This document shows, in pieces, positions 21,362 through 23,743 of a DNA stretch of 34,097 bases (positions are counted from its first letter, which is position 1; each line of letters opens with the position of its first letter). This DNA comes from Bacilli bacterium (lineage in GTDB: Bacteria; Bacillota_I; Bacilli_A; RFN20; CAG-826): contig JAGAHY010000001.1 in assembly GCA_017626815.1 (NCBI GenBank), positions 1 through 34,097 of the forward strand. The letters are read 5' to 3'. The translations under genes were made by a program, and so were the position numbers. The notes below the pieces were generated by a model that did not search any database, had not been told where the DNA came from, and saw only the letters and a program-made list of their open reading frames with translations.

Positions 21362-22372
21362 TTATTTGCGCGATTTTCCCTCCCGCTTTTGCTGCTTGGC
21401 GTAGTGTGCGGCGGCGGCCTCAAAACGATTGCCCAGACGTTTGGCCATCTCGAGAGGTTGAATCACGAAAGCATGCTCTCCCATGCGGAATACAAAGTTT
21501 TCAATTTGCAAATAGGTGCCCCTGAGGCAAACCCGAAAATGCTCTGGGTCATCCGGAACGTCTTTCACCTCATAGCTAGGGCGATTGTAATACATATGCT
21601 TCAAGTACTTTAAACCATAAACGTCCAGCAAAACCTCAGCGTCGATTAAGTCCCCCATAAGGAAGGCAACATCCTTTTCAAAAGCGCTCTCAATGGCTTT
21701 GATATCCTCTTTATCAAATTCAAAGTAATTCCTGGTTACCGTTATCGCTTGGTGGAACTTAAACAAGTGAACGGAAACCGGTTGCGTTCCCTTGGCTTCC
21801 CGAAGCGCGACAACATAATTAAAACTTTGCTCGGCATTGACTGCGATGCAATAGGGGCGAAGCAAAACGCTCTCGCCATTTTCACGTATCAATTTAATCA
21901 TGCGACTATCCGCGATAGCATCTTGAATCAAGTTGTATTCCTCACGGTGAACCAGGACCTCACGCTGCGAGGCTGACAATTTCAAATAATCCGTCAATAG
22001 AAGACGAACGTAAGAAGATAACGAAATAGACTTGAGCTCGTTTTCTTCAATGCTCCGGATCGTCAGCTCGTGCTTTGCGGAGGGGCGTAACGACAAAGCG
22101 CGGTCTAGTGGAAAAGGCTCTTCGGTATCGTTTAGGATCAGCAACTCATCCGCGATTTCTTCGGCTTTCTTTTTATCTCTAGTTCCAAGTCTGCCAATAA
22201 TGTGACTTACATATTCCTTACGTTTCTGGCGGCGCCACTCGTACATCTTCTGAATGAGGTCGCAAAGGAAAGCGTTAAAAGACGGCGCATTCTCATCAAC
22301 AAAGAATGCCTGGTAGTCATTGAACAGCCTCTCGTACATCAAAGGAGTGATGTTAACCTTGATTTTATCCAT
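21362..22372 (-). CDS. WYL-domain transcriptional regulator divergent from rtcB
   Basis: The N-terminus of this 336-aa protein (about 1-55, KIKVNITPLMYERLF then two helices) looks like a ribbon-helix-helix DNA-binding unit. The middle is helical, and residues from about 160 form a WYL domain (GESVLLRPYCIAVNAEQSFNYVVALRE). A C-terminal extension (EVLLDVYGLKYLKHMYYNRPSYEV onward) is like those of WYL regulators. WYL domains sense nucleic acids or nucleotides and are frequent near RNA-repair and defence genes. The ATG at 22372 is preferred because TACAAT ends 6 bases upstream and no ribosome site exists; a GTG at 22387 would lie inside that box. It probably represses itself and rtcB through the repeats between them. 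Confidence 0.82.
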   Translation of the reverse strand: MDKIKVNITPLMYERLFNDYQAFFVDENAPSFNAFLCDLIQKMYEWRRQKRKEYVSHIIGRLGTRDKKKAEEIADELLILNDTEEPFPLDRALSLRPSAKHELTIRSIEENELKSISLSSYVRLLLTDYLKLSASQREVLVHREEYNLIQDAIADSRMIKLIRENGESVLLRPYCIAVNAEQSFNYVVALREAKGTQPVSVHLFKFHQAITVTRNYFEFDKEDIKAIESAFEKDVAFLMGDLIDAEVLLDVYGLKYLKHMYYNRPSYEVKDVPDDPEHFRVCLRGTYLQIENFVFRMGEHAFVIQPLEMAKRLGNRFEAAAAHYAKQQKREGKSRK

Positions 22373-22378
22373 AGATAT

Positions 22379-22384
22379 ATTGTA
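22379..22384 (-). promoter_or_regulatory. -10 box of the WYL gene, leaderless geometry
   Basis: TACAAT on the minus strand ends 6 bases before the ATG at 22372. A TTTTCT or ATTTTC at about 16-17 bases upstream could be the -35. The repeat at 22390-22400 falls inside the spacer. Confidence 0.5.
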
Positions 22385-22389
22385 CACAT

Positions 22390-22400
22390 TTTGTGGTCAT
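22390..22400 (+). repeat. Direct repeat copy 1 (TTTGTGGTCAT) in the WYL-rtcB intergenic region
   Basis: This is an exact 11-base copy of the element at 22444-22454, 54 bases apart start to start. It lies between the presumptive -35 and -10 of the WYL gene, a typical repressor position. Confidence 0.65.
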
Positions 22401-22443
22401 AGAAAATGCAGATATTGGGGTAAAATGTCCTTTTTCATATATA

Positions 22444-22454
22444 TTTGTGGTCAT
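22444..22454 (+). repeat. Direct repeat copy 2 (TTTGTGGTCAT), near the rtcB promoter
   Basis: This exact copy lies just before a TATAAA box at 22460-22465 that may serve rtcB. A partial TGTGG in reverse orientation overlaps the rtcB ribosome site. Two identical sites on a divergent region suggest joint control by the WYL protein. Confidence 0.65.
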
Positions 22455-22525
22455 TCACTTATAAATATCTCGCATATTTTCGTCAATTCTACTTTGCAAG
22501 AAAATATACTTAGGGGGCCACACCA

Positions 22526-23743
22526 ATGAAACTAGTCAAAGGCACTTATAATACGGCGAAGATCTTCACCGATAATGTTGAAGAAGGTGCAATCAAACAA
22601 ATCAAAGCACTATGCGACATGGAAGCTTATAGAGAAAGCAAGATTCGTATTATGCCTGACGTTCACGCGGGTATTGGCGCAACCATCGGAACGACGATGA
22701 CCTTGTATGGCAAAGTCACCCCCAATCTCGTGGGCGTCGACATAGGCTGTGGCATGACTGTCGCGTCTATCCCTAGGGAGGTTGATTTAGAAAAACTAGA
22801 TGTCATTATCCATTCTAGAGTCCCGTCCGGCATGTCGATAAGAGAAACACCGCATAGATATATTGAAAACGTCAATTTATCCTCCCTTTCTTGTTTCTCT
22901 GAATCTTCTCTATATTATGAAAAATGTTCTCTAGGAACGTTAGGTGGTGGCAATCATTTCATCGAGGTGGATAGAGGAAAAGGCGGACAGCTATACCTCG
23001 TTATTCATTCCGGTTCACGCCACCTTGGTACGCTGGTCGCCAAGCACTATCAAAAGATGGCTATTGAGTCTTTAAAGGGACATTCAGCAAAAGACATTAA
23101 TGGATTGATCCGCAGTCTTAAAGAACAAGGCAGGCAAAGCGAAATCCAAGCGTCTCTAAAGGCTCTATCCAAGAAAGAATGTCCTGTTGATGAGGCCTTG
23201 GCCTACTGCGAAGGCGAGCTTTTTGAGCAATACATTCACGACATTGGCATCGTGCAACACTTTGCTACCTGGAACCGAAGAGCCATCATCGATGAGATCG
23301 TCGACGGGATGGGAGTGCCCATAACTGTGCTCTTTGAAACCATTCATAACTACATTGACCTTGATGCGATGATCCTCCGCAAAGGGTCAGTATCAGCCAA
23401 GGAAGGCGAAAAACTGATCATTCCGATGAATATGAGGGACGGCTCCTTAATCTGCGTAGGAAAGGGCAATCCTGACTGGAATTTCAGCGCGCCACATGGA
23501 GCGGGACGTCTATTTAGCCGCGCAGAAGCCAAACGCCGCTTCAATTTGGATGAATACAAGCAATCCATGAAGGGGATCTATTCCACTTCTATCGATATGG
23601 GGACCATCGATGAATCGCCCATGGCATATAAGCCGATGGACGAGATTATTACCAACATCGCTGACACAGTCGATGTGGTTGACGTAATTAAGCCCATCTA
23701 TAATTTCAAGGCACCTGAAAACTTGCCCGTATGGCGCAAATAA
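22526..23743 (+). CDS. rtcB: RNA-splicing ligase RtcB
   Basis: This 405-aa enzyme ligates RNA 2',3'-cyclic phosphate (or 3'-phosphate) ends to 5'-OH ends using GTP and Mn2+. Family motifs are clear: MPDVHAGIGATIG, VGVDIGCGM (D72, C75), GGNHFIE (H144), IHSGSRHLG, ETIHNYID and the C-terminal HGAGRLFSR, where the guanylylated His lies. It is at the short end of the bacterial family range. The ATG follows AGGGGG. No rtcA, archease or tRNA gene is nearby. The divergent WYL regulator suggests that expression is induced by RNA damage, similar in outcome to RtcR control in other bacteria. Confidence 0.94.
   Translation: MKLVKGTYNTAKIFTDNVEEGAIKQIKALCDMEAYRESKIRIMPDVHAGIGATIGTTMTLYGKVTPNLVGVDIGCGMTVASIPREVDLEKLDVIIHSRVPSGMSIRETPHRYIENVNLSSLSCFSESSLYYEKCSLGTLGGGNHFIEVDRGKGGQLYLVIHSGSRHLGTLVAKHYQKMAIESLKGHSAKDINGLIRSLKEQGRQSEIQASLKALSKKECPVDEALAYCEGELFEQYIHDIGIVQHFATWNRRAIIDEIVDGMGVPITVLFETIHNYIDLDAMILRKGSVSAKEGEKLIIPMNMRDGSLICVGKGNPDWNFSAPHGAGRLFSRAEAKRRFNLDEYKQSMKGIYSTSIDMGTIDESPMAYKPMDEIITNIADTVDVVDVIKPIYNFKAPENLPVWRK

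Follow-up and report, generated by a model that had tools for sequence, protein, structure and literature searches.

Control of the RNA ligase RtcB by RtcR is already known, as is control of defence genes by WYL proteins. In the rtcBA and rsr-yrlBA-rtcBA operons of proteobacteria, the gene for RtcR, a CARF-containing sigma-54 activator that senses tRNA fragments, lies divergent from the RNA repair genes (PMC7790460). Among WYL proteins, PafBC (PMC11804915) and DriD (PMC12340889) are activators of damage genes that are gated by ssDNA, while CapW and BrxR adjoin the phage defence loci that they control, CapW being a repressor that acts on palindromes at the -10 (PMC9122588). RspWYL1 (PDB 6oaw), in turn, is an accessory protein that binds ssRNA and the Cas13d effector, boosts the latter and disfavours dsDNA (PMC6547453). 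Our literature search found little on rtcB control in bacteria without RtcR, no paper describing a WYL1-like factor at rtcB, Ro-like or ROOL loci, and none treating WYL and ROOL together, although an earlier mention of WYL-rtcB adjacency is possible. A WYL-controlled rtcB would be new, and a site code common to RtcB, Ro-like and ROOL loci would be the more surprising part.

We analysed a 34,097-nt stretch of a Bacilli bacterium contig (JAGAHY010000001.1; hereafter, the window) in which a WYL-type gene and rtcB diverge from a common intergenic region. The features of the locus are as follows:

21362-22372, minus strand: WYL1-like regulator, 336 aa, with its ATG at 22372
22378-22383, minus strand: TACAAT, -10-like box of the regulator gene, its distance to the copy 1 core falling within the family's 13-16 bp
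22390-22400, plus strand: candidate operator copy 1, TTTGTGGTCAT, 17 bp to the regulator ATG and adjoining its -10-like box
22444-22454, plus strand: candidate operator copy 2, TTTGTGGTCAT, core GTGGTC at 22447, inferred rtcB -10 53 bp downstream
22470-22475, plus strand: TCGCAT, which corresponds weakly to the TTGACA-like box of relatives and precedes the -10 by 24 bp
22500-22505, plus strand: inferred rtcB -10, GAAAAT, best register +53 by a model built from relatives only
22526-23743, plus strand: rtcB, short-type RNA ligase (~405 aa), active-site counterparts present

Searched by sequence on its own, the regulator had no significant match in Pfam, NCBIfam or the PDB, and the Pfam WYL family PF13280 was not reached at its curated cut-off or even at E 10. 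The protein was classed via homology and fold rather than via PF13280. Its AlphaFold2 model (pLDDT 86.6) contains the elements E4-8/H10-23/H32-62 and E91-95/H99-111/H118-131, i.e., two ribbon-helix-helix (RHH) motifs in one chain (residues 4-62 and 91-131), which the alignment to 6oaw also places as in RspWYL1-type proteins. These are followed, again as in RspWYL1, by a central, Sm-like WYL barrel (~157-216) and a C-terminal domain (~242-335). Structure comparison of the model with 6oaw gave Z 22.7 across 318 residues, and a profile of seven rtcB-linked homologs of the regulator matched RspWYL1 at 5e-21 over almost its full length. Next in the structure ranking came DriD, BrxR, CapW and PafBC, which have the WYL and C-terminal part in common with the regulator (Z 10-12 for PafBC and DriD). 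The original prediction that this is a WYL protein is correct, as judged by the 6oaw match and by a homolog (L063) that passes PF13280. Since the model matches 6oaw across these 318 residues and the other proteins align at the WYL and C-terminal part, the DNA-binding portion is a tandem RHH and not a winged helix, a feature that the prediction had missed. Its relationship to the Cas13d accessory protein extends over the full length of the regulator.

Several differences from the described systems follow from this architecture and its setting. Unlike RspWYL1, the regulator is partnered with rtcB and faces conserved DNA sites, which imply a role in controlling genes. PafBC and DriD carry winged-helix DNA-binding domains, respond to DNA damage and use other binding sites. 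CapW and BrxR are likewise winged-helix proteins, and whereas CapW sits on palindromes at the -10, the sites here are direct repeats outside the partner's -10. As for RtcR, the gene divergent from rtcB encodes an RHH-WYL protein instead of a CARF and sigma-54 AAA+ activator, which bears out the expectation of a separate type of regulator, and no rtcA lies beside rtcB; the next gene is a convergent aldolase.

The identity of RtcB itself was borne out by Pfam PF01139 (E 1.7e-58, 199.3 bits against a cut-off of 27). Residues C78, N167, H168, H185, H281 and H337 of E. coli RtcB, which we take to be the catalytic ones, correspond to C75, N143, H144, H161, H274 and H324 of the window protein, and the latter is 45-51% identical over its full length to relatives within the order. 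No known RNA scored above cut-off around this rtcB, and a search beside it for an ACAGCAA hairpin closed by a stem found none. The window's genome also holds a second, shorter RtcB-like gene (~370 aa; G000:C24:587-1684, L072) without a WYL neighbour, and this type occurs in several congeners as well. At one locus of the order that lacks a WYL neighbour (L066, 4645-5877), Tyr replaces the conserved His of PHGAGR (H324 in the window), so that this RtcB may be inactive.

RtcB of the window's type was found in 12 genomes of the order, the window's included, and ten loci were intact enough for their neighbours to be judged. A divergent WYL1-like gene was present at seven of these ten: directly divergent from rtcB in the window, L061, L062, L068 and L069, and separated from it by a DUF2828/DUF7788 gene in L063 and L064. 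The remaining three (L065, L066 and L067) had no WYL neighbour. Of 80 more rtcB loci, most of them clostridial, just two had a WYL1-like regulator (L125, an Erysipelotrichaceae MAG, and L186, Oribacterium), in both cases divergent with one gene intervening. The operons of L063, L064 and L186 also hold a Ro-like gene and Y-like RNAs, a likeness to rsr-yrlBA-rtcBA (PMC7790460). Comparison of rtcB upstream regions in relatives, which had been suggested as a check, thus showed that both the pairing and the paired repeat recur. The WYL-rtcB stretch itself (21362-23743) had no match in 30 congeners, and the adjoining rhamnose genes matched many of them; the pair is an accessory insert. Misbinning of the contig was ruled out, as a window gene shows 78-82% DNA identity to six congeners.

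In a tree of regulators (40 rows), those linked to rtcB fell on several branches, with the window regulator on a long branch. Since six changes are needed, at least four of them forced, the partnership with rtcB was gained or lost on several occasions, and a single ancestral WYL-rtcB pair is not favoured. At ~16 of the 80 other loci (Clostridia), rtcB is accompanied by two tandem WYL-type proteins in place of an RHH-WYL regulator (e.g., L129, 1117-3262, with similar loci among L111-L190; one protein passes Pfam WCX), so RtcB may have come under the control of WYL proteins with more than one kind of DNA-binding domain.

The intergenic region contains, as predicted, two exact copies of TTTGTGGTCAT 54 bp apart, both on the plus strand. 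No further exact copy was found on either strand of the whole 2.42-Mb genome, in keeping with the proposal of a self-contained system. The pair scored 15 against a mean of 7.8 for dinucleotide shuffles of the intergenic region, none of 200 of which reached it, and just four distinct exact 11-mer direct repeats spaced by <=100 bp exist in the 34-kb window. Relatives share the same paired layout, with the core G[GT]GGTC in a single orientation (no match on the opposite strand of their regions) and 33-68 bp between copies. With a 16-bp leave-one-out model from which the window was excluded, the window pair scored 10.9 at spacing 54, a value matched by none of 1229 control upstream regions. Nine of 13 loci stood at 0/1229, and the numbers of controls scoring as well were four for L062, nine for L063 and L064, and 19 for L208. 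A chance repeat is ruled out by the genome uniqueness, the shuffles and the controls, and the putative operator pair is confirmed as a real, conserved feature. It is scarcely probable that the repeats belong to some other regulator and that the WYL gene is a mere neighbour, as might be argued from L061, where a WYL gene is divergent from rtcB and the motif is absent. The motif pair tracks the WYL1-like gene across partners as varied as rtcB, DUF2828, ROOL and others, and is missing from the 1229 controls, which include the upstream regions of rtcB genes without a WYL1-like regulator. A genome-wide search for a wider regulon (paired GKGGTCA) returned five matches, two at WYL1-like genes and three unsupported, with one control match.

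The sites also hold a fixed relation to the promoters. In 18 relatives, whose partners differ widely, a partner -10 hexamer lies 51-54 bp from the copy 2 core, whatever the copy-to-copy spacing (33-68 bp), and the averaged profile exceeded that of 300/300 shuffles, the core sites having been picked by eye ahead of this and the following profile test. A TTGACA-like hexamer occurs in the relatives 24 bp upstream of this -10 instead of the usual 17 bp and was equalled in 0/300 shuffles, where the -10 positions were the best within a 16-bp range; the usual -35 position is poor. An alternative is that the TTGACA-like box belongs to the operator. On the other side, the regulator's own -10-like box lies 13-16 bp from copy 1 in most loci, again equalled in 0/300 shuffles. 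When the window was scanned with a model that left it out, the best register was +53 (score 9.75; runner-up, 0.65), although both its -10 and its TTGACA-like hexamer match weakly and a mechanical scanner found no strong promoter in the region. Of the promoter boxes in the original prediction, that of the WYL gene held up, with copy 1 just upstream of TACAAT (22383-22378), while for rtcB a -10 at 22500-22505 is preferable to the TATAAA near 22460. Because the -10-like box and the ATG of the regulator are only a few bases apart, the regulator mRNA may be leaderless.

Protein family, paired sites, conservation and promoter register are thereby established by computation. Taken as a whole, they are best explained, with a probability that we put at roughly 55%, by autorepression at copy 1 combined with activation of rtcB at copy 2 in response to a nucleic-acid signal. 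The 336-aa RspWYL1-family factor would bind the two GTGGTC copies. By sitting at copy 1, on its own promoter, it would limit its own expression, and from copy 2, ~60 bp ahead of the point where rtcB starts, it would switch on a weak rtcB promoter, much as PafBC and DriD activate their targets. The ~60-bp site, the poor -35 and the fixed register argue for an activator at the partner promoter together with autorepression at copy 1. As the two RHH motifs are non-identical and in one chain, a single protomer is able to recognise a site without symmetry; a dimer joined through the C-terminal domains could therefore bind two direct repeats. The signal would most likely be a nucleic acid from RNA cleavage, bound by the WYL/C-terminal surface, and RtcB would then reseal the cut RNA ends. 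That the signal is of RNA type is a reasonable guess by analogy, since PafBC and DriD are gated by ssDNA, RspWYL1 binds ssRNA and RtcR senses tRNA fragments.

The main rival, and the reading first proposed, is a repressor that spans both copies and shuts both promoters until RNA or another ligand releases it. Two copies 33-68 bp apart inside a divergent promoter region, one of them at the regulator's own promoter, would suit such a protein, and CapW offers a precedent for a repressing WYL protein (PMC9122588). However, a repressor would need no fixed 51-54 bp register of copy 2, and the usual -35 position is poor. The claim that RNA ends release the WYL protein is unsupported as stated, the distance of copy 2 and the 24-bp spacer suiting an activator better, and we regard repression as possible but clearly the less probable account.

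WYL1-like genes that do not adjoin rtcB often keep the paired sites as well. ROOL RNA (RF03087) and a WYL1-like gene are immediate divergent neighbours at 11 of 40 loci examined: one in the window's own genome (G000:C128; L201, 6052-6752), and L077, L079, L080, L193, L202, L203, L204, L210, L213 and L219. Paired GGGGTC sites occur in several of these, and in a search of the genus one of two ROOL genes was adjoined by a WYL1-like regulator. ROOL is a large RNA that forms cages, and we know of no role for it. Since the regulator family adjoins ROOL, inducers of WYL1-like regulators could show when ROOL and RNA repair genes are needed. At three further loci (L191, L208 and L209), the partner is a Ro-like DUF2828 gene with tandem Y-RNA-like hairpins. 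The RNA link of the original prediction is broader than the RtcB setting in which it was conceived, the family being found on DUF2828/Y-like-RNA and ROOL loci as well.

The same loci bear on whether the regulator might chiefly assist RtcB by binding RNA, in the way that RspWYL1 serves Cas13d, with transcription control secondary. It has the architecture of RspWYL1, a binder of ssRNA and of an effector (PMC6547453), yet the paired operators and promoter register are conserved, and the family also adjoins ROOL RNA genes and other genes without a ligase; we consider an accessory role quite unlikely. Tentatively, and at somewhat less than even odds, tandem-RHH WYL1-like proteins may be RNA-sensing factors that use one operator-promoter code to activate RtcB, Ro-like DUF2828/Y-like-RNA and ROOL loci, the Cas13d WYL1 having been recruited from among them. 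The proposed code consists of two GKGGTC-type direct repeats, with copy 2 51-54 bp from the -10 and a TTGACA-like box 24 bp from the -10. The common sites and promoter layout point to an overlooked regulator family for RNA repair and RNA-based genes, and the findings suggest an origin for the Cas13d accessory WYL1. At the window locus, one can name the regulator, its candidate sites and the promoter, each of which is open to direct test.

The tandem Y-RNA-like RNAs share a 5' AAGRYRY-N-ACAGCAA closed by a complementary 3' end with compensatory changes, number up to six per locus and lie mostly near DUF2828 or rtcB (L063, 4196-4330; L064; L191; L208; L186, 4097-4475; L129, 3320-4380; and further L130, L142, L162, L178, L180, L184 and L190). 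Some members have tRNA-like bodies. L206 (6831-7676) may be a defence locus: next to a ThsA-type Macro domain gene it carries a WYL1-like gene that has TTTTGTAGGTGC direct repeats 55 bp apart. Finally, one clade of WYL1-like genes has an unnamed family of 705-735 aa proteins as its divergent partner (L196, L198, L199, L216 and L230). One member of this family had no Pfam match; its loci carry similar sites, and the promoter register is identical where measured.
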